From Rhizobium rhododendri (GTDB lineage: Bacteria; Pseudomonadota; Alphaproteobacteria; Rhizobiales; Rhizobiaceae), in contig NZ_CP117268.1 in assembly GCF_007000325.2 (NCBI RefSeq), forward strand, positions 124,001-188,000: 64,000 nt of DNA, written 5' to 3'. Shown here piece by piece: positions 4,553 to 17,919 of this stretch; the stretch's first letter is position 1, and each line of letters starts with the position of its first letter. Both the position numbers and the translations under genes were made by a program. The notes beneath the pieces were generated by a model. It made no database searches and was not told the origin of the DNA. It worked only from the letters and a program-made list of their open reading frames with translations.

Positions 4553-4583
4553 TTGAAAGCCGTATCGTGTGAACAGGTTATAT
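4553..4583 (+). promoter_or_regulatory. Possible promoter of the SARP-type regulator gene
   Basis: TTGAAA at 4553-4558 and GTTATA/TTATAT at 4577-4583 are spaced 18-19 bases. If used, transcription would start near 4590, downstream of the GTG at 4569, which supports the ATG at 4617 as the translation start. Read by eye only. Confidence 0.3.
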
Positions 4584-4616
4584 ATCCTGACAGACAGAGA
4601 CTTGTGGAAAGCAACC

Positions 4617-6560
4617 ATGAAGTTCAAACTGCATACCTTCGGTCGCTTAAGACTTGTTGATCGCGTCGGTGATGTTTCTTTTCCTGAAAAAGCTCTTTTA
4701 GCGCTCTGTTATCTTCTTGATACCAAGCAGATGGAAGCAAAGCGCGAAGATGTGGCCGCGTTACTGTGGAGTGGCTCAAGTCAATCCGGCCTGCTCGCCA
4801 ACATGCGCAAGCTCATCTCCCGGATCAAGGACAGGCAGCTCGAACTCGGTGTCGAATTCCTGACGTTTACCGACAAGACAATTCGCGTGGAGATCGGCTC
4901 GCTCGATTTCGACCTCACATCCATCGACACTCTGGAAGACGAGGACGCGGTCCGCTCCCTGCACCGGATGTTGAATGTCATTGGTCCGGAGTTTCTCCAG
5001 GACTTCGTGCCCATGGATACGCTGCTCGACGCCTGGGTCGAGGAAAAACGCAAGGGCTGTTCAGACCGGTTGCTGCGGGCGTTCAAACGCGCCTTGCCGA
5101 TGCTCTCGGCCCGGGGCTGCGACGACGTGATGCGGACAGCCGCGCTCCGCCTATTCACGCTCTACCCTCAGGACGAAGAGGTCCAGCGCTTCCTTCTCGA
5201 ATGCTCGGGGAGCGAGGGTAGCCTGGAGGGTTTGTCATCCGGCGCGAGCCTGAAGGAGGAGACGCCATCCGGCTCTGCGGATGCGGGACAAGACCTGCTT
5301 TCGCTGGATCTGGCGGGCCGGATGTTCAACAAGCAGTTTGCGGAGGCCCGCGCGTTGCTGCTGGCTCGCCCGTCGCCGTTCCTGTCTCCCTACGGCGGCG
5401 GCCATCTCAAGCTGCCGCGTCTGGCACTTCTGCCGCCGCAACTCGACGGCGGAAATATTGTCGCGACGCTGCTTGCGGCCTCCCTTGTCGAGGACATCAC
5501 GATCGGTTTCGGCGCCCTGAAAAGCGTGCGCGTGATCGCCCCCCACACGGCCAGCCAGTTTTCCCGCGATCCGGACAAGGCTGCGACATTCGCCCGCCAT
5601 TCCATTTCCTATATCCTCGATACCCGGATCAGCTACGACGAGGAGGTTTCGCTCTTTGCCCAGCTGATCTCCTTTGCCAATGACGAGATCGTCTGGGCTG
5701 AACGTTTCAGCCTCGATGCCTCCAACCTGACGCGGCAAAGGCGGGAAATTTCCAAGCGTATCGCGGTGACCGTTGCCTCGCAGATTGAGCGGGACGAGCT
5801 GTCACGGGCTTATTTCGAGGCCAGCCCGGAGGCCTATCACAGCTATCTGGTTGGGCAGCGTCATCTCAAGGATCTGACATTGCCGAATCTGCGCCGGGCC
5901 CGTCGGGAATTCCGGTCCGCGCTGCAAACCAACCCGCATTTTGCTCCGGCGCTGAGCGGTATCGCGCGCACCTATTCCAAGGAATGGTTGCTCACGGCGC
6001 GCGGCGACCAGGAATTGCTGGCCTCGGCTGCGGAGTTTTCCACCAAGGCGATTGCTGCCGGTGCAGATCTCGGCGGAGGGTATCGCGAGTTGGGAGTGGT
6101 CAGGCTGCTGCAGGGGGACCTCGACGAGAGCGTCGAGGCGATGAAGCTTGCCGAGAAGCTCAGCCCGCACAATGCCGATATTATCGCCGACCATGCCGAT
6201 ACGCTGGTTCATTATTCGCAGCCGGCGGCGGCGATGGAAAAAATAGTCAATGCCATCGACCTCAACCCGCTGACACCTGACACCTACCTTTGGACTGCCG
6301 CCGGTGCCAGCTACTGCCTCTTGAATTTCGAGGCTGCCCTGGCCTATATCGCCATGACGCACGACAAGAGCCTTACCAATAGGCTCTCTGCGGCCTGCTG
6401 GGCGATGCTCGGCGACATCAGGAAGGCGCGTTCCTTCGTGCGCAAGGCGCGGCAGAGCAATCCTGATTTCGATGTGGATAAGTGGCTTTCAGTCATCGCC
6501 ATGAAAGAACAGTGGCAGAAAGATCTGTATCGCGAAGGCCTGCGAAAAGCTGGATTTTAG
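4617..6560 (+). CDS. SARP/BTAD-type transcriptional regulator with TPR-like C-terminal region
   Basis: 647 aa. Residues 1-95 resemble the OmpR-like winged helix of SARP-type activators: MKFKLHTFGRLRL, then FPEKALLALCYLL, REDVAALLW and a recognition-helix-like LANMRKLISRIK. Residues 100-210 resemble the bacterial transcriptional activator helical domain. The middle resembles the TolB/adenylate-cyclase-associated domain of rhizobial regulators (SLVEDITIGFGALKSVRVIA). The C-terminus (about 420-620) is helical with TPR-like units such as NPHFAPALSGIARTY and SPHNADIIADHADTLVHY. The ATG at 4617 has GGAAAG upstream. The target is unknown; it may control the following small gene and hydrolase, or the facing PLP/ATP-grasp operon. 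Confidence 0.75.
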   Translation: MKFKLHTFGRLRLVDRVGDVSFPEKALLALCYLLDTKQMEAKREDVAALLWSGSSQSGLLANMRKLISRIKDRQLELGVEFLTFTDKTIRVEIGSLDFDLTSIDTLEDEDAVRSLHRMLNVIGPEFLQDFVPMDTLLDAWVEEKRKGCSDRLLRAFKRALPMLSARGCDDVMRTAALRLFTLYPQDEEVQRFLLECSGSEGSLEGLSSGASLKEETPSGSADAGQDLLSLDLAGRMFNKQFAEARALLLARPSPFLSPYGGGHLKLPRLALLPPQLDGGNIVATLLAASLVEDITIGFGALKSVRVIAPHTASQFSRDPDKAATFARHSISYILDTRISYDEEVSLFAQLISFANDEIVWAERFSLDASNLTRQRREISKRIAVTVASQIERDELSRAYFEASPEAYHSYLVGQRHLKDLTLPNLRRARREFRSALQTNPHFAPALSGIARTYSKEWLLTARGDQELLASAAEFSTKAIAAGADLGGGYRELGVVRLLQGDLDESVEAMKLAEKLSPHNADIIADHADTLVHYSQPAAAMEKIVNAIDLNPLTPDTYLWTAAGASYCLLNFEAALAYIAMTHDKSLTNRLSAACWAMLGDIRKARSFVRKARQSNPDFDVDKWLSVIAMKEQWQKDLYREGLRKAGF

Positions 6561-7889: not shown

Positions 7890-9350
7890 TCAGTAGCCTT
7901 TGCCGGCCAGGTATCTGTCGATGATGTCGATGAAGGCGTCGATATCGGCGGATGTCGTCCTGTGGTTGACGATTGCGCAGCGCACTGCCAGCTCGCCGCC
8001 GACCGTCGTCCAGGACGGGGCAGCCAGGCCGGATTGCTGGAGGTCGAGCACCAGATCCCGGACAAAATCGGAACCTGCCCCGCGAACACCGAAGCAGACG
8101 ATGTTCAAGGCGACCGGTGCCCTGAGTTCCAGCAGCGTGTGCCGCTCGATATGGTGGGCAAGATGGGATGCCAGTTCGCAGGTATGCGCAATGGAACTGC
8201 CGATGCGCTCCGTGCCGAGCGTTTCGATCGTCATCCAGGTCTTGAGCGCTCGAAAGCCGCGCGACAGATCGGGGCCGAGATCGCAGGGCCAGGTCTCACC
8301 GGCCGCAAGGCCGCGATCGGCGCGCTGGAGATAGGCCGCCGGCTGGGCGAAGGCCCGCTTGTGGGCGGCGCCGTCCCTGACCAGCAGAAACCCGGCATCA
8401 TAGGGAACATGGCCCCATTTGTGAAAGTCCAGCGCCACAGAGGCTGATTTCTCGATGCCCGCAAACAGCTCTCGCAGATCGTGCGAAAGCACTGCCAAAG
8501 CGCCGATAGCGCCGTCGACGTGGAACCATAGATTTTCCTGGACAGCGATGTCGGCTATGGCAGAAAGCGGATCGATGGCCCCGGTATTGACGGTGCCGGC
8601 GGTGCCGACGACGAGAAACGGCAGGTGTCCGGCGGCCCGGTCGGCGTCGATCATGGTGCGCAAAACGCTGGTCTGCATTCGTCCGTCAGCGTCGACAGTC
8701 ACCGTTCGCAAATTGGCCGAGCCTATGCCGGAAAGCTCCATCGCCTGGGCAATGCAGCCATGGGCTTCGCTCGAGGTATAGGCGACGAGTTGTCGGTCCC
8801 GATTCCGCAAGCCGTTTTGGCGGACGGAATGGCCGAGCGCCTCCGTTCTGGCGATGATCACAGCCAGGAAGTTGGCCATGGAAGAGCCGGTGAGAAACAG
8901 GCCGCTGGCGCCTTGGGGATAGCCGAGGGCCTCGCTCATCCAGCGGACGATCTGGTGCTCGACCTCCAGTCCGATATGGTCGCGGCCGCCACAATTAAGG
9001 TTCATTCCGGCGGCGACGATCTCGGCCACCATACCGACGGGCGTACCCGCGCCATGGACCCAGCCCATGAACAGCGGATGCAGGTTGCCGGTGGCGAAGG
9101 GAAGGATGTGGGTGCGCACGTCATCGAGGATGTCGCCGAGTTCGCGAGGGTCTGCAGGCAACGGACGGGCAAACCGGGCGCGCGTTTCGGCTGCCGGCGG
9201 TTGCCAAACCGGTCGCTGCCGGACGGTCTCGATATGGCTGATCATGTCGTCCAGCATGCCGTGGGCGAGCGCGCGAAATTCACTCCAGTCCAGCGGGTCG
9301 AGGCTGGAGCGCTCAGCCGTTCTATCGCCGCGCGTATCCGCTTCCGGCAT
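7890..9350 (-). CDS. PLP-dependent group II amino-acid decarboxylase
   Basis: 486 aa, fold-type-I pyridoxal-phosphate decarboxylase of the DDC/glutamate/diaminobutyrate family. Seen: GNLHPLFMGWVHG (substrate-side loop), LTGSSMANFLAV (phosphate-binding region), SSEAHGCIAQA (ring-stacking His), WFHVDGAIGA (Asp contacting the pyridine N), and DFHKWGHVPYD with the Schiff-base Lys near 311. Length is normal. Its ATG overlaps the stop of the upstream PLP gene (TGATG), so the two are translationally coupled, and it is the last gene of a three-gene operon. It probably converts an amino acid to an amine, but which one cannot be read from the sequence. Confidence 0.88.
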   Translation of the reverse strand: MPEADTRGDRTAERSSLDPLDWSEFRALAHGMLDDMISHIETVRQRPVWQPPAAETRARFARPLPADPRELGDILDDVRTHILPFATGNLHPLFMGWVHGAGTPVGMVAEIVAAGMNLNCGGRDHIGLEVEHQIVRWMSEALGYPQGASGLFLTGSSMANFLAVIIARTEALGHSVRQNGLRNRDRQLVAYTSSEAHGCIAQAMELSGIGSANLRTVTVDADGRMQTSVLRTMIDADRAAGHLPFLVVGTAGTVNTGAIDPLSAIADIAVQENLWFHVDGAIGALAVLSHDLRELFAGIEKSASVALDFHKWGHVPYDAGFLLVRDGAAHKRAFAQPAAYLQRADRGLAAGETWPCDLGPDLSRGFRALKTWMTIETLGTERIGSSIAHTCELASHLAHHIERHTLLELRAPVALNIVCFGVRGAGSDFVRDLVLDLQQSGLAAPSWTTVGGELAVRCAIVNHRTTSADIDAFIDIIDRYLAGKGY

Positions 9351-10894
9351 CAGAGAGCCCGGACATGGTGAAGGACGGCCGCCAGCTTGTCGAACACCGC
9401 ATCGAGCCGCGATTCCACCGGATGGAATGCCTGGTGCAACGGCAGAGCAGCTGCCATGCGGGCCGAGACATCAAGCACGTCGGCCGCTGAAGCCGCGACC
9501 CTGAGGACCGTGCGAGATCCAAGCCGGACGGCTTGGCCAAGATGGCAAACCGGACCGTCGTCGCGCTCGCGCATGAGCAGGTGGATCATCTGCGAGTGCT
9601 CGAAGGAGGCAAAGCCGCCGGTGCGGTTGGAGATCGTGAAGGGCACGATCGTTCTTGCGTCGAGATGGGCGCCCTCATCGTTGGCATGCAGGCGGATACC
9701 GGCGACGCTGTCGATACGGGCGCGCACCAGTTTCACGAAATGGGCCTTGATGAGCGCCTGCTCGTCGTCCTGGATGACGGCGTAGCGATCGAGGGCGGCA
9801 GAGGCCGCCACCCATCGAAGGCCGAGACCGAGATTGAAGTGCGAGCCGAATGTGAAATCCATCTTTTCCCGAAGTGCCGATGGCCAGTCATGGGCTGCCG
9901 TGTAGGCCGAGAGGCCGGAAGGAATAGCGCTTCTGGTGGCGAGGGCCTCCCCGAGAGACGTCGGCACGAGGAGAGCGCCGGAAAAGGGTGGGCCCCCGAC
10001 AAATTTCGAGCCAGTCAGTACGACGAGAAAACCGTCGGCAAGATCCTGCCGGATATCGGACGCCGAGCAGCGGAACTGGCAGGCATCGACGATCACATGC
10101 ACGCGGCCGGGGGCAAGCAAAGCCGCATGCCGGGCTGCCTGCCGCGTCACGCCGGACAGGCCTGTCTTCGATGTATCGAGCACATGGACGAGCACGTCGC
10201 GGTCGCGTTTCAGCTCCCGTTCGACGGCGGCGATCATGGCATCGTCGATCTCCTCCTGACGACGCGGTTCGCCTTCGCCGTTGCGGATGGCCACGGTGCA
10301 CACCTCGATCCGCTCGGGATCCAGGCCTTCCAGCGGCTTTCCGGCTTCGACGGTGCTGCCGAGGGCAGCAAGATCCGAATAGTGGCATCCGGATGCAGCC
10401 CGGGGCACGCCGCTGCCGGTCTCTTCCGGCGCAACGAGAATATTGGTGAGGGGCCGCGCGGAAAGCCCTGCAAACAGGCAAAGGGCCATCAACTCCGCGT
10501 CTGTCCCGGAGGCTGCCAGAATGATCGTGGCGTCGGTACAGCCAAGGCTGGTGGCGATGCCCTTACGGATATCGGCAAACCATCGGTCGATCGCAACCGG
10601 ATCTGCTGACTGGCGATCGACGAGCCGCTCGAGAGCGATCCCGGCCGCGCGGAACCCGTCGCCTGATACGTTGCTGGCCGTCGTCGACGAGAACGAAATT
10701 TCGTGCTCGGCGGGCGTCGTCAGTGTGCCGTAGCGGTTCCGTCGATGGACGGGATCGGGCGAAATGCGTTGGTCGCCGCCAGCCCCGAGTAGCAGCGGAA
10801 CGGAGGCGAGCGACTGCCCGAGAAGCGCTGTTTTAGCCGGCCTCGATGACGGGTCGACTGGCATCGGTAGGATTAGACGCTGACTTGCAGCCAT
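9350..10894 (-). CDS. Fold-type-I PLP-dependent enzyme (class V aminotransferase-like)
   Basis: 514 aa. The core shows IILAASGTDAELMALCLF (cofactor-phosphate region), VHVIVDACQFRCSASDI (Asp opposite the pyridine N) and VVLTGSKFVGGPPFSGALL, where the Lys near 297 should form the Schiff base. The layout is closest to class V aminotransferases/cysteine-desulfurase/kynureninase-like enzymes, but I do not recognise a specific enzyme. It has a long N-terminal extension and a C-terminal part unlike the standard families. GGAG lies six bases before the ATG. It sits between the ATP-grasp fusion (34 bases upstream) and the decarboxylase (1-base overlap), so it very probably acts in the same pathway. 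Confidence 0.75.
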   Translation of the reverse strand: MAASQRLILPMPVDPSSRPAKTALLGQSLASVPLLLGAGGDQRISPDPVHRRNRYGTLTTPAEHEISFSSTTASNVSGDGFRAAGIALERLVDRQSADPVAIDRWFADIRKGIATSLGCTDATIILAASGTDAELMALCLFAGLSARPLTNILVAPEETGSGVPRAASGCHYSDLAALGSTVEAGKPLEGLDPERIEVCTVAIRNGEGEPRRQEEIDDAMIAAVERELKRDRDVLVHVLDTSKTGLSGVTRQAARHAALLAPGRVHVIVDACQFRCSASDIRQDLADGFLVVLTGSKFVGGPPFSGALLVPTSLGEALATRSAIPSGLSAYTAAHDWPSALREKMDFTFGSHFNLGLGLRWVAASAALDRYAVIQDDEQALIKAHFVKLVRARIDSVAGIRLHANDEGAHLDARTIVPFTISNRTGGFASFEHSQMIHLLMRERDDGPVCHLGQAVRLGSRTVLRVAASAADVLDVSARMAAALPLHQAFHPVESRLDAVFDKLAAVLHHVRAL

Positions 10895-10928
10895 GATGGT
10901 CTCCGTAATTTGGCTGCGAACGACGGCT

Positions 10929-12707
10929 TCAGAGGATCGGCTCGTCGACCGCCACGGCGCCGGCGATATAGGAGATTTGCATTTCGTGCTGGATCAGCGG
11001 CGCAAGATCACGGGCGCGCTGGGTGAACTCCAGCCCGCAACGGTCGACATATGCGCGGTCGACGCGTGCGCTCGAGCCGGGGTCGATGATCTTCTCGCCG
11101 TCCCAGAAGACCGCATGCCCGGTGTCGGGGACCGTCGGTGAGACGACGCCGATGATCCCGGGCTTGTCCCACAGCATGTAGATACCACTGAGCAGCACGA
11201 GGCCGCATGCGTTGGCGACGCCGCGCATGATGGAGTGGCTCATAGGCCCGCCCAGAGGGAACCGGGGGTCGCTTTTTATCGCCATGTCCTGGATGTCTTC
11301 GTAGGTCCTGCCGGTAAACATCGCCAGCGCGCAGATCAGGCAGTCGTCGTCAGTCCTTTGGTAGACAGCCGGTTTTCCCGTATGGGCACAGGTGACGTCG
11401 GAGGCGGAGGTCGCGCGCAGCATGCGATCTCTCAGGGCGCCTTCGAAGGCTGCGAATAGCTTGGTCGTCGCCTGCTTCTTGTAGGGGAAGACCTTTTCGG
11501 AATCCATCGAGTGGACGATCATGGCGACGTCGGCTTCGAACATCAGCAGACGTCCGTCCGACAACTCGGCGCAATCGATGGCGAAGTAGTCAAGCCCGAA
11601 GCGGCGATGCAGGGCGTCGAAGGCTGCTGCGTGGCGGACGGCGAAGTCGGTGTCGAAATTGGCCATCCAGCGGCCTTCTTCCTCGCGACGCTCCGCATGC
11701 TCAGCCATGCCGGCGCTGAGGTAATGGACCATCCAGTGGTCGGAAATCGCCAGGTGGCTGGCATAGGCCTTGCCATTGATGAACGCGATGCGCTGTTTGC
11801 GGAACTTTCCGTCCTCGTCGCTGTAGTCGATGAAGGGCGTCAGGTAGAATTCGGTGTCGGCGTGCGCGGCGAGATAGCCCGAAAGCTCCCAGCGGGCCGA
11901 GATTTTCTCCATGCCCTTGCCCGCATGCGTGCCGTGTGGCCGGACGATGATCGGAAAGCTCGTTGCGTCGAGGATGGAGCCCAGTTCGATCTCGCCAGCA
12001 GCGAGCCGCTGAAGCTTTTGACGATCGACGCGAACGGTTGCAGGCGCGAGAACCCAGCGCTCGTCCCTGAAGGCATTGGAAACGCCATCCCTGGAAAGAT
12101 CCATGATGGACTGCGGCGCATTGTTCAGGATCGGTCCCGACCAGTCGCGCAAAAGCCGCTTGAGGTTTTCGAGGACCGGGAGATTGTCCGTGGATTCACC
12201 AACCGCGACGAAGGCGACGTCATGTGCCGGGATATCGGAGAGATCCCGGGTTTCCGCGTCGACGTAATAGAGCAGGAGGTTGGTATCCGAATGCTCGAGC
12301 AGAAACTCGATCGGCGTATTTGCCATGAAATCGCCAGCCGTCATGAACACCAGAATGTCCAGGCCTGTGCCCTTGCCATTCTGGATCCGGTACTGGCGGC
12401 TGATATCGAGGGCAGCCTTCTGGCTGATGACGGCCTTTTCCTTCTCGCCCACCGTATGCAGGACGATCGAGGCATCCATGAAGGCGGCAGCGTCGCCGAG
12501 ATCGGCAGAAGCCCGCTCCAGCAGCTGGTTCCAGAGGGGCGTGATGTCTCTCTGTTCATAGATCGCCCGCACGATCGGCGCCTTGCCGATGATCAGGTTG
12601 GGGTCCGCAAATGTCTGGATCTGGGCCGCTGCACCAATCAAACTCTCAAGCCTTCCACTATGCGGCGCGCCCCGCCTTGCCCGGCGTGGTTCCGCTTTCA
12701 GATACAT
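10929..12707 (-). CDS. ATP-grasp domain fused to a papain/C39-like cysteine peptidase domain
   Basis: 592 aa, first gene of the operon. Residues about 1-125 are helical. Residues about 130-400 look like an ATP-grasp ligase: the pre-grasp element LNNAPQSIMDLSRDGVSNAF, the ATP-binding strand FPIIVRPHGTHAGKGMEKI, and the metal region LLMFEADVAMIVH, where Glu is kept but the usual Asn is not. Residues about 430-592 form a papain-like domain with Cys near 456 (TDDDCLICALAM), His near 531 (PDTGHAVFWDG) and Asp near 542 (KIIDPGSS), a plausible C39-type triad. There is no export signal. An ATP-driven amide ligase joined to an amidase/peptidase or acyl-transfer domain is inferred. The start at 12707 is the longest and has only a distant GGGAG. 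Confidence 0.7.
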   Translation of the reverse strand: MYLKAEPRRARRGAPHSGRLESLIGAAAQIQTFADPNLIIGKAPIVRAIYEQRDITPLWNQLLERASADLGDAAAFMDASIVLHTVGEKEKAVISQKAALDISRQYRIQNGKGTGLDILVFMTAGDFMANTPIEFLLEHSDTNLLLYYVDAETRDLSDIPAHDVAFVAVGESTDNLPVLENLKRLLRDWSGPILNNAPQSIMDLSRDGVSNAFRDERWVLAPATVRVDRQKLQRLAAGEIELGSILDATSFPIIVRPHGTHAGKGMEKISARWELSGYLAAHADTEFYLTPFIDYSDEDGKFRKQRIAFINGKAYASHLAISDHWMVHYLSAGMAEHAERREEEGRWMANFDTDFAVRHAAAFDALHRRFGLDYFAIDCAELSDGRLLMFEADVAMIVHSMDSEKVFPYKKQATTKLFAAFEGALRDRMLRATSASDVTCAHTGKPAVYQRTDDDCLICALAMFTGRTYEDIQDMAIKSDPRFPLGGPMSHSIMRGVANACGLVLLSGIYMLWDKPGIIGVVSPTVPDTGHAVFWDGEKIIDPGSSARVDRAYVDRCGLEFTQRARDLAPLIQHEMQISYIAGAVAVDEPIL

Positions 12708-14305: not shown

Positions 14306-14789
14306 GTGGTTCACAACGCATGACCGGCGTGCCACCGCGGCGGCTTTGCTGAACGCCATGACGCACGCCGTTTTATTAATGTGCACAAGCAGCCACGTCT
14401 CGCAGAAGATGTGATCCTGGTCGTGCTGCTAGCGCAGGAATGCGTTGCCGAAAACTTATGCTAGGCTAACAGTAACGATGCTACGCGCGACATTCCCTGC
14501 CGCTCAACGTAGCACACCAATTGGATTGACCTCCAATGGCGGAGGCCTGGTCTCCCTGGCCAGGCCTCTTTCTCCCCGCTAGATCCGGGTGAACCTCGGG
14601 CCTTCTGCAAAGCTGCCTCCAACGGTATGTTGGCTATCGGCGACCAGCTTGCGCCGGAAATGACCATCTTTCTCCGACGAAACACTTTAACCCCGCTGCA
14701 ATATATATTCGGCAAAATGCATAAACAGCGGCGGGAGATGTATTCCGACGATCGGCATGAAGCCATTTTCCGTCTCCGGGAGTAGCTCT
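14306..14789. other. Gene-free stretch with an orphan hairpin
   Basis: About 480 bases between the porin terminator and the GGDEF gene. No convincing ORF was found. The only clear structure is a GC-rich hairpin, GAGGCCTGG (14542-14550) with CCAGGCCTC (14560-14568) and a 9-base loop, followed by TTTCTCCCC. It follows no annotated gene, so it could end a small RNA transcribed from somewhere in 14310-14540. That RNA is a guess. Confidence 0.35.
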
Positions 14790-16333
14790 GTGCAATCACT
14801 GCGCCGAAATCGCGCCAAAGTCGAAGCAATCCTCTGGATTGCGACATTCCTGGTGATCTACGGGCTGGCCGTTCATTACAACGGGCACGAGGCCCTCGAT
14901 ACATTTTTCCGCGAAAACGAGAAATACGATTTCGATGAGGTCTTTACGGCCCTGAATATCGGCGGCGCCCTGGGTCTGATCTATTCGCTGGTCCGCATAA
15001 AGGACATGGCGGAAGAAATTCGCCGGAGACATGCCGCCGAGAAAAATGTCGACTGGATTGCCTGCCACGATCCCCTGACCGAGCTCCCCAACAGGCGTTT
15101 TCTCGGCGCGGATGCGGCGACACGAGAAAACCTTGCCTGCAAGGATGGATACGCAGTCTTCAGCATCGACCTAGATGGCTTCAAGAAGATCAACGACCTT
15201 CTCGGCCACGATTACGGCGATCAGGTACTGAAGATCGTGGCGGAGCGGCTTCGCTACATTTTTCCGGATGCCAACGTCTATCGCCTGGGCGGCGACGAGT
15301 TCCTTGTCATCACGGAGAGGATGGGAAATCCCGATCTTATCGCGGTGGGAAACCGCATCGTCAGCAATATCTCGAAGCCGATATCAATCAACGCTGCAAA
15401 CGTCGACGTGGGTGCCAGCGTCGGCATCGCGCGGATCCCCGAGGATAGCGCCACCTTGGCGGAGGCTATCCAGCAATCCGACTGCGCGATGTATGCCGCG
15501 AAGAAAGCAGGCCGCAACGGCGTCAGGACCTTCGTACCCGCCATGCAGACGGAGCTTGAAAAGCGCGTCCAGATGGAAGCCGATCTGAAGCGCGCCATGA
15601 AGGCGGGAAAATCCGTCCGCATTACCAGCCGCTGGTCGATCTCAAGACCCGGGAGATCGTCGGTTACGAGGCGCTTGCGCGATGGGAGGTCTCGCCGGGT
15701 CAATTCATTCCGCCCAGCGACTTCATTCCGCTCGCCGAGGATAGCGGCCTGATTGTCGAACTGACCGACAGTCTCTTTCGAACGGCCTGCCGGGATGCTC
15801 TGTCCTGGCCCGTTGATACCGTGCTGTCGTTCAACATCTCTCCCGTCCAGCTCAGCGACAGGCTGCTGGGGCTTCGCCTGATGCAAGTTCTAGGAGAGGT
15901 CGGCCTTCCCGTCCACCGGCTGGAACTGGAGGTGACGGAAAGCGCGCTCATCCAGGATCCCGAGGCGGCCCGCTATGTCCTCGATCAGTTCACCAAGGCC
16001 GGCATCAAAATCGCGCTGGATGATTTCGGCACCGGCTATTCCAGCCTATCCCAACTGTCCGCATTTCAGTTCGACAAGATCAAGATCGACAGGAGCTTCG
16101 TCGCGACCTTCGAAAACAGCGACAAGCAGGACAAGGTCGTCAGGGCAATCATCTCGCTGGGAAGCGGGCTCGGCGTCAAGATCACGGCGGAAGGCATCGA
16201 GCAGGAGAGCCAGCTCCAGCGGCTGCAGGTCCTGGGCTGTGACATCGGCCAAGGCTACCTGCTTGGCAAGCCGCAAGCGATAGCCCAGCCCATCCTCGCG
16301 AACGAGCGGCAGGAGACATCGTCTTCCCGCTGA
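14790..16333 (+). pseudogene. GGDEF-EAL cyclic-di-GMP protein interrupted by a -1 frame change
   Basis: The probable start is GTG 14790 (GGGAG seven bases upstream), with ATG 14757 as an alternative. Two membrane helices (AILWIATFLVIYGLAV and the IGGALGLIYSLV region) precede a GGDEF domain with intact RLGGDEFLV. At 15605-15611 the frame reads G GGA AAA, after which the original frame ends at 15752 with unrelated residues. The EAL domain continues in the -1 frame from 15611 as IRPHYQPLVDL, with EALARWE and DDFGTGYSSL intact, to 16333. One A missing from an A run, or a ribosomal -1 slip, would both explain it. Without either, only the diguanylate cyclase half is made. Domain identity is sure; functional status is not. 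Confidence 0.8.
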
Positions 16334-16374: not shown

Positions 16375-17919
16375 CTAGTTCCGTTTTGTCTCCGAGCGAA
16401 CCCTGATGGCAAAGGGCACGCAGGCCAGGGCGGCGAGGGTCAGGATCGCCACCATTGTCCATGCCTCATTGATGGACTGGGTGAGGGCTGCCTTCTCGAC
16501 CAATGGCTGCAGCATGGATCGGGTGGCGTCGTCGATAGGTCCTGACGGGCGAGAGGTGAACATGTCGAGCGGTATGCCGACATAGGTCGCCGTGGCTACG
16601 TCTCCGGCGGCAAGCTTTTCCATCAATGCCGTACCGTGGCCCGGCGAGCGGCCGTAGATCACCGTGTCGATCAAAGCGAGGCCGATAGCGCCGCCGAGGT
16701 TGCGCATCAGATTGAAAAGACCGCTGGCGTCGGGAACGCGGCTTTCGGGCAGGTTGCCGAGGGCAAGGCGCGTCGGTGGCAGCAGGCAGAACATGATCGC
16801 CACGCCACGGATGACCTGGGGCCAGAACATCGCGGCGGAATCGCTGTCGGGTGTCTGGAACGCGCTCATCCCGAGGCCGACGGCAAACAGTGTGAACCCT
16901 GCTGCGGAGAGAAGTCGCGCCCCGACGCGCTGCTCGAGAAAGACGGCGATCGGCGCTGTCAGCAGTTGGGCCACGCCCGTGACCAGCATGATCGTGCCGA
17001 TTTCGAGCGCATTGTGACCGCGCACGAACGCCAGGAAAACCGGCATCAGATAAACCGATCCAAACAGTCCGATGCCGAGCACGAAGCTCAGGATGCAGCC
17101 GACCAGGAACGACCGGTCGGCGAAGCTTCCGAGGTCGACGATGGACACCCCGGCTTTCAATGTCCGGCGCACGAACATCGAAAGGCTGGCGAGGCTGATC
17201 ACCAGCAGGCCCAGCACGAGGCCGGACAGCCATCCGCGCTGCGGGGCTTCTTTGAGGGCAATTTCGAGGGCCGCGAGTGCCACGGCCATCGCGAGCAGCG
17301 ACACGAGGTCCAGAGGTCTCAACGTGCCCAAGCGCATCGTCGACTTCGGCAGCAGGAAGCCGGCGATACCGGCCGACAGGATGCCTGGAATGATGTTGAT
17401 CAGAAACAGCCAGTGCCAGGAATATGTTTCGGTGATCCAGCCGCCGACGACCGGGCCGACCGTCGGGGCGAGAACGGCAAGAACGCCGGCGATGGTGGTG
17501 GCTATACCCTGCCGCGCTACCGGGAACAGGATGAAGACGGCAGAAAAAACAGCCGGAATCAGCGTGCCTCCGGAAAAACCCTGCAGCACCCGCCAGGCTA
17601 TCAACTCCGAAAAGCTGTCGCTGGCGGCACAACCGGCCGAGGAGAGCGTGAACACCGTGACGGCAAGCACGAACAGCCAGCGCATCGTCAGGGTACGCGT
17701 CAACACGCCGGTCAACGGGATCGCAATCACCTCCGCGATGAGATAGGCGGTCTGCACCCAGCTCATCTGATCCTGAGGAATATCGAGTGCGCTCTGGATG
17801 GTCGGCAGGGATGTCGCCACCACCTGGACATCGAGGATCGCCATGAACATGCCGACACACATGACGATAAAGCCCAGCCAGGTGGCCGTGCCGGTTGCAG
17901 TCACTTGAGATTGGCTCAC
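16375..17919 (-). CDS. MFS drug-efflux transporter, DHA2 (EmrB/QacA) type
   Basis: 514 aa with about 14 hydrophobic segments. The first helix carries the DHA2 motif-D-like FMAILDVQVVATSLP, and the antiporter motif C region is LAPTVGPVVGGWI. The start is GTG 17919, with GGAGGAT six bases upstream. It would export hydrophobic compounds across the inner membrane using the proton gradient. There is no periplasmic adaptor gene beside it. It is divergent from the FAD/NAD(P)-binding protein gene, and their shared 229-base gap may hold linked promoters. Confidence 0.88.
   Translation of the reverse strand: MSQSQVTATGTATWLGFIVMCVGMFMAILDVQVVATSLPTIQSALDIPQDQMSWVQTAYLIAEVIAIPLTGVLTRTLTMRWLFVLAVTVFTLSSAGCAASDSFSELIAWRVLQGFSGGTLIPAVFSAVFILFPVARQGIATTIAGVLAVLAPTVGPVVGGWITETYSWHWLFLINIIPGILSAGIAGFLLPKSTMRLGTLRPLDLVSLLAMAVALAALEIALKEAPQRGWLSGLVLGLLVISLASLSMFVRRTLKAGVSIVDLGSFADRSFLVGCILSFVLGIGLFGSVYLMPVFLAFVRGHNALEIGTIMLVTGVAQLLTAPIAVFLEQRVGARLLSAAGFTLFAVGLGMSAFQTPDSDSAAMFWPQVIRGVAIMFCLLPPTRLALGNLPESRVPDASGLFNLMRNLGGAIGLALIDTVIYGRSPGHGTALMEKLAAGDVATATYVGIPLDMFTSRPSGPIDDATRSMLQPLVEKAALTQSINEAWTMVAILTLAALACVPFAIRVRSETKRN

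Follow-up and report, generated by a model that had tools for sequence, protein, structure and literature searches.

A candidate amine-making and amide-ligating gene module of Rhizobium rhododendri with relatives in rhizobial flagellin loci

Introduction

Flagellin strongly triggers host immunity and also serves as a receptor for phages. ATP-grasp ligases convert a carboxylate to an acyl phosphate and then to an amide, and RimK, LysX and ArgX carry out this reaction on proteins. Group II decarboxylases form an amine with loss of CO2. Relatives of both enzyme types are encoded by a three-gene operon of Rhizobium rhododendri that is described in this work. The operon is located in a stretch of 64,000 nucleotides (contig NZ_CP117268.1, positions 124,001 to 188,000), which is called the window. 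It encodes an ATP-grasp ligase (GRASP), a pyridoxal phosphate (PLP) enzyme (PLP2) and a PLP decarboxylase (DEC).

The ATP-grasp fold of GRASP is nearest to RimK, LysX and ArgX at 10–17% identity, where the comparison is limited to residues 114–449. GRASP differs from these ligases by an extra N-terminus that resembles tetratricopeptide repeats (TPR), an optional C39-like C-terminus and other gene company. DEC shares PF00282 with the tryptophan, dihydroxyphenylalanine (DOPA) and diaminobutyrate group II decarboxylases and is too distant from each of them for a substrate to be assigned. PLP2 has no sequence-family match to class V enzymes (SufS/NifS, alanine-glyoxylate and aminoethylphosphonate transaminases, and C-S lyases).

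Caulobacter FlmG, like GRASP, couples N-terminal TPR sequence to a catalytic domain, which is a glycosyltransferase in FlmG and an ATP-grasp ligase in GRASP. The helical part of GRASP is also short and its binding of flagellin is only proposed here, while the TPR part of FlmG binds flagellins (PMC7591256). The Campylobacter capsule system (Cj1436, Cj1437, and Cj1438) combines decarboxylation, a second PLP-type step and amidation, with serinol and ethanolamine phosphate amidated onto glucuronic acid (PMC12409886). The trio resembles this system in its proposed reaction steps, and the Campylobacter system acts on capsule glucuronic acid.

Flagellin modification has been suspected in rhizobia. 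For the subpolar flagellum of Bradyrhizobium diazoefficiens, a 2021 review states that it 'may be similarly glycosylated' (PMC8429497), and the flagellins of R. leguminosarum run heavy (PMC2936354). In the literature searched, where subscription journals are thinly covered, nothing connects the three genes with flagella or with one another, and no description was found of PLP decarboxylase and RimK-type ligase enzymology for flagella. The initial annotation had recognised no known pathway in the trio. This statement stands for the literature searched. The cut-off of the siderophore model RhbB is also missed, and there is no IucA/IucC-type or Gss Pfam match at E ≤ 1.

Relatives of the module in flagellin loci

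We propose that the trio is a conserved module for making an amine and ligating it as an amide, that its target is most likely flagellin in the relatives located in flagellin loci, and that the window trio, although located outside flagellar genes, probably performs this chemistry as well. This reading is given a probability of slightly below one half (about 0.48). Relatives of the module occupy positions inside flagellin loci in both Rhizobium and Bradyrhizobium, and this is a new result. The Rhizobium loci that were examined number 53 (51 fetched loci together with L039 and L157). DEC and GRASP are adjacent inside a flagellin array in 37 of these loci, each from a different genome (37 of 148 genomes), with the flagellins encoded on the other strand. 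The flagellins are confirmed by Pfam at array loci L039 and L157. L247, which has one weak FlgG match, was left out of the count, thereby reducing it from 38 to 37 loci. The rest of the 53 loci consist of 10 window-type loci, none of them flagellar, and six lone GRASPs. Only two of the 37 array genomes, the incomplete ones, showed no PLP2, and the other 35 have it in place (L039) or on another contig (34). Nearly every genome with the DEC-GRASP pair thus has PLP2 at the same locus or elsewhere, which is in favour of a shared pathway.

In the ten Bradyrhizobium loci (g41), some of which are truncated where a contig stops, PLP2-GRASP-DEC is flanked by FlgE-FlgK-FlgL on one side and by large flagellins on the other, with the same strand in use (Pfam matches for L051). 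PLP2 is found in eight of the ten. The genus is assigned from the 120 nearest GRASP proteins, of which the named ones belong to Bradyrhizobium, including B. diazoefficiens and B. japonicum. Three further genomes exhibit related arrangements. A flagellin and FlaF are surrounded by PLP2, GRASP and DEC in G489, and DEC and GRASP adjoin flagellin pieces, FlgK, FlgL and hook genes in G087. GRASP adjoins FliI- and FlhB-type genes in G139, which, judged by Pfam alone, may instead belong to a type III secretion system.

The control loci were 20 of the 24 weakest DEC places in the order-wide search, which hold DEC paralogues without GRASP. None of the 20 shows a flagellar gene within the fetched 12–20 kb, as searched with rhizobial flagellar queries that very divergent flagellins would escape. 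Four stronger DEC-only loci (L162, L163, L164, and L173) also gave no flagellar match. A GRASP tree was constructed from 104 of 123 loci, namely those above 160 bits and non-identical, and the flagellar label requires five changes on its 104 rows. L170 has no flagellar label on the tree because its contig breaks off shortly after entering a flagellin. The chance of at least five of 18 lineages being flagellar is 2e-5 if about 2% of the genome is near flagellar genes, where both the 2% and the 18 are estimates.

The DEC-GRASP pairs and trio relatives inside flagellin loci point to a flagellar protein as the target rather than a free metabolite. The initial annotation had suggested that the trio builds an amide-linked amine or a modified peptide. 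An amide-linked amine would be the natural chemistry of these enzymes, and the suggestion is narrowed by the flagellin-locus relatives towards a product that is attached to a protein. The placement of the relatives opens the idea of an undescribed flagellin modification to direct tests. It provides candidate genes, among the flagellin genes, for the suspected rhizobial flagellin modification in genera with good genetics, as well as an initial hint at the function of a family of PLP enzymes without Pfam or NCBIfam model.

A 277-aa protein without Pfam or NCBIfam match is encoded between FlgL and PLP2 in L051 (11116–11946), and its counterparts occur at 77–95% identity in eight of the nine other Bradyrhizobium loci.

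Conservation and co-occurrence of the three genes

Each of the three proteins was searched in 397 genomes from across the order. The search detected PLP2 in 19 genomes, of which 17 also have GRASP and 18 have DEC at 52% identity or more, while GRASP (E ≤ 1e-30) was found in 24. All three genes are adjacent in 15 of the 19 PLP2 genomes, and the association between PLP2 and GRASP is strong (Fisher 2e-22, kinship ignored). The trio is also adjacent in 28 of the 32 named loci that have PLP2 at 49% identity or more (L054–L083, L092, and L117). Both partners are absent from L078 and L092, DEC is the only partner in L117, and L080 has DEC and a GRASP-like gene at 35% identity. Among the 148 Rhizobium genomes, GRASP is present in 53 (E ≤ 1e-60), PLP2 in 53 (E ≤ 1e-30) and both in 50 (Fisher 6e-32, kinship ignored). 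GRASP occurs without PLP2 in G784 (82% complete), G808 (73% complete) and G811. The genome searches scored part of the first-look candidates, for example 12 for Rhizobium GRASP and 9 for Rhizobium PLP2.

The initial annotation had taken the three genes as one pathway and had named rare co-occurrence of the families as the observation that would speak against it. The neighbourhood search across the order found the families together in the numbers above, and the proposal of a shared module is borne out. The gene orders vary by lineage (GRASP-PLP2-DEC, PLP2-GRASP-DEC, and DEC-GRASP-PLP2), which speaks for selection as the force that maintains the linkage.

The ligase of the module seems to be exchangeable. 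PLP2 adjoins relatives of the PF14397 ('sugar-transfer associated') ATP-grasp, together with DEC in Methylovirgula, PLP2-DEC is located beside an asparagine-synthase-like protein among KpsS and capsule export genes in Bordetella petrii, and GRASP is followed by a SerC-family transaminase in Paraburkholderia. The first two neighbourhoods would also suit a module that amidates a surface polysaccharide or glycan as in the Campylobacter capsule, the acceptor on flagella being a flagellin glycan. The two PLP-type enzymes and the amidoligase of C. jejuni are a precedent (PMC12409886), and R. leguminosarum flagellins stain as glycoproteins. Against these points, the window ligase is RimK-like in fold and has no PF14397 match at E ≤ 1, a sugar-transfer Pfam match is absent in the direct neighbours of the window trio, and the TPR-like region suggests a protein partner. 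A glycan target is considered unlikely.

The window trio falls in a GRASP-tree clade of 37 rows, none of which has the flagellar label, and no flagellar Pfam match was found among the window-trio neighbours tested. Of the 53 GRASP-bearing Rhizobium genomes, 37 have the array form and 16 are of window type, namely 15 with a trio and G811 with only DEC and GRASP. Five of the window-type loci come from a separate fetch. Both forms occur together in none of the 53 genomes, where an overlap of 4 is expected (P 0.0075, kinship uncorrected). This exclusivity fits two versions of one function, and it could come from shared ancestry instead.

Proposed mechanism and opposing observations

In the proposed mechanism, DEC would convert an amino acid to an amine, and PLP2, as a class V-type enzyme, would prepare or reshape the amino acid used by DEC. 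GRASP, as a TPR/RimK-type ligase, would activate a carboxylate of the target protein with ATP and join the amine to it as an amide. The target in the flagellin-locus relatives would most likely be flagellin, and the modification would be non-glycan or mixed. The TPR-like part of GRASP may hold flagellin, as the TPR region of FlmG does. The window trio would probably perform the same chemistry, acting in trans on flagellin or modifying a different exported protein, and the C39-like cysteine domain of its GRASP would trim or reverse the amide.

A more specific form of this proposal is tentative and is given less credence. DEC, GRASP and PLP2, linked or not, would constitute an undescribed flagellin-modification pathway in Rhizobium and Bradyrhizobium where a TPR-guided ATP-grasp ligase attaches a decarboxylated amino acid to flagellin by an amide bond without a glycosyltransferase. 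The window trio would be a relocated, C39-armed replacement of the array form, which would explain why both forms are never found in one Rhizobium genome examined.

Several observations weigh against a flagellin-directed module. The window trio is located on C2 and the flagellins of its own genome are on C1, and the ten window-type loci all lie outside flagellar surroundings. Of the 35 array genomes with a PLP2, 34 encode it away from the DEC-GRASP pair, and the Bradyrhizobium loci include one with a PLP2 fragment (L154) and one with none (L155). Three flagellar rows of the GRASP tree are long branches. The named close relatives L078, L080, L092 and L117 are without the normal trio. G811 has DEC and GRASP with no PLP2 found, and PLP2 occurs without GRASP in three Rhizobium genomes (G772, G782, and G818). 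Lone GRASPs account for six of the 53 Rhizobium loci as well as two in a Cupriavidus metal-resistance plasmid. The staining of R. leguminosarum flagellin points to sugar and not to an amide.

The remaining opposing observations bear on the main rival, in which the product of the trio is a diffusible metabolite, an amide or a peptide, that could serve for example as metallophore or signal. GRASP would then couple the DEC amine with an amino acid modified by PLP2, and the C39 domain would trim the product. Distant PLP2 relatives are located directly after nonribosomal peptide synthetase (NRPS) genes on Sinorhizobium and Rhizobium plasmids (L202, L203, and L204, from Sinorhizobium medicae, R. leguminosarum and R. 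jaguaris), and the PLP2 relative of L043 is beside an NRPS-type protein. Two genomes of genus g155 have GRASP near genes for a major facilitator superfamily (MFS) protein and a TonB receptor, and one of the two also shows TetR and DEC. The best NCBIfam match of DEC is also the diaminobutyrate decarboxylase RhbB, a siderophore enzyme. However, the score of this match is 173 bits against a cut-off of 900. The direct neighbours of the trio, in the window and in R. tumorigenes, are a porin gene and a metallo-beta-lactamase (MBL) hydrolase gene with no receptor, although an MFS gene that does not directly adjoin the trio is present in the window at 16375–17919. The repeated placement inside flagellin arrays is left unexplained by a metabolite, which is regarded as a doubtful alternative to the flagellin-directed module.

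The Cupriavidus GRASP relatives (L199 and L205) are located in nickel/cobalt resistance regions of the plasmid, and one of them spans two open reading frames (ORFs).

Characteristics of the three proteins

The classes that had been assigned from the sequence, namely an ATP-grasp ligase fused to a C39-like domain, a class V-like PLP enzyme and an amino-acid decarboxylase, are correct. The GRASP gene (10929..12707, reverse strand) encodes 592 aa as called, or possibly 570 aa from a downstream start, and the protein has TPR-like helices, a RimK-like ATP-grasp and a C39-like domain. The helical part covers residues about 40–102 (12402..12590, reverse strand) according to model secondary structure. 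The TPR matches in GRASP relatives are weak, and several relatives are annotated in the source as 'tetratricopeptide repeat-containing'. The ligase core covers residues about 114–432 (11412..12368, reverse strand). Pfam RimK (PF08443) is not among the matches of window GRASP at E ≤ 1 and scores 16.5 bits in the relative L159, below the cut-off of 21. By analogy with RimK, LysX and ArgX, GRASP may ligate an amino acid or amine to a protein carboxylate.

The C39-like domain covers residues about 440–584 (10956..11390, reverse strand). The Gln-Cys-His-Asp order is present, with Q450 in 43/43, C456 in 41/43, H531 in 43/43 and D542 in 43/43 rows. Pfam C39 is matched below threshold in one relative only (11.2 bits, cut-off 22), and the profile of the domain gave only three irrelevant matches among solved structures (E 0.8–0.97). 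The domain is optional: it was detected by tblastn in 10 of the 28 named trio loci and in none of the 48 flagellar GRASP loci.

A ligase and a papain-like amidase in one chain resemble the architecture of Gss. In a glutathionylspermidine-type enzyme, the ATP-grasp part would couple a small peptide with a polyamine-like amine, and hydrolysis of the product would fall to the papain-like domain. The Pfam models of Gss ligase and CHAP amidase have no match in the trio at E ≤ 1, and tblastn did not extend to the C39 domain at 18 of the 28 named trio loci or at any of the 48 flagellar loci. This explanation is improbable. C39 domains commonly cleave leaders and ATP-grasp ligases occur in ribosomal peptide pathways, so the C39-like domain might remove a leader while the ligase and the PLP enzymes modify the core. 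The optional nature of the domain argues against such a pathway. The surroundings of the trio showed no precursor gene, which is a weak point as ORFs below 80 aa were not called. A ribosomal peptide is very improbable.

The PLP2 gene (9350..10894, reverse strand) encodes 514 aa. The protein has fold type I and the class V arrangement with the presumed PLP residues K297, D270 and Q273. It matches no Pfam family at E ≤ 1, Aminotran_5 included, and no NCBIfam model, and its profile matches no solved structure at E ≤ 0.01. PLP2 was compared by HH-align with class V enzymes of its own genome. The alignment with the SufS-like L306 is not significant (probability 0.5%, E 0.11) and those with L307 and L308 are also not significant, while L309 gave 20.6% (E 0.0011). 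The Asp-Gln and Lys motifs coincide in the alignments with L306 and L309. C450 is found in 64 of 73 rows, 15 residues ahead of the near-invariant R465 (72 of 73), and this Cys-Arg spacing of 15 equals that of L306 as read by eye. L306 is taken by us to be SufS, and its catalytic residues are likewise assumed. Sulphur chemistry is possible for PLP2.

Other settings of PLP2 were also observed. The Acetobacteraceae loci (L095–L132) have a PLP2 of about 700 aa, and a histidine-phosphatase-type gene is in the cluster at 22 of these loci, mostly just downstream. A Neorhizobium locus (L201) has a D-aminopeptidase gene and a D-alanine aminotransferase gene followed by PLP2, with no DEC or GRASP found within the stretch. 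The unlinked PLP2 of three Rhizobium array genomes (L042, L041, and L053) is tail to tail with a pair of genes for a Cache-domain histidine kinase and a sigma-54 response regulator, which are possible regulators.

The DEC gene (7890..9350, reverse strand) encodes 486 aa and its product matches PF00282 above the cut-off (189.7 bits, cut-off 27). Every NCBIfam equivalog cut-off tested is missed by DEC. The nearest solved relatives are 4obu (tryptophan), 7xin (DOPA) and 2qma (diaminobutyrate). Assignment of a DEC substrate by homology was rejected because the best solved relatives are split among these three decarboxylases and each is too distant. A siderophore pathway was also rejected, as the RhbB cut-off is missed and an IucA/IucC-type match is absent in the three proteins at E ≤ 1.

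Layout of the operon and neighbouring genes

The window is located on contig C2 of a genome of 5.96 Mb. The three genes form a leftward operon in the order GRASP, PLP2 and DEC. The tight spacing given in the initial annotation was confirmed: the spacer between GRASP and PLP2 is 34 bp (10895..10928, reverse strand) and the PLP2 stop and DEC start overlap by one base in TGATG (9350..9350, reverse strand). The spacer has CGGAGA before PLP2, which we take to be a ribosome-binding-like sequence. The third codon position is the G+C-richest in all three frames, and the scan for promoters and terminators gave signals at chance level only. A near-identical trio is present on chromosome 2 of Rhizobium sp. 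L51/94 (PLP2 100%, GRASP 100%, and DEC 99%), and the plasmid trio of Rhizobium tumorigenes is also close to that of the window (GRASP 98%, PLP2 95%, and DEC 95% identical).

The window encodes at 4569–6560 a TPR protein of 663 aa that matches BTAD weakly and has no DNA-binding Pfam match. Its relative is located directly downstream of DEC in L062, and the protein may be a regulator of the module given this relative. The GGDEF-EAL gene at 14757–16333 of the window consists of two ORFs (14757–15752 and 15821–16333). Its counterpart is a single 529-aa ORF in Rhizobium sp. L51/94 (L054) and one EAL-domain coding sequence in R. tumorigenes, and the split is a frameshift in the window copy, either real or from sequencing.

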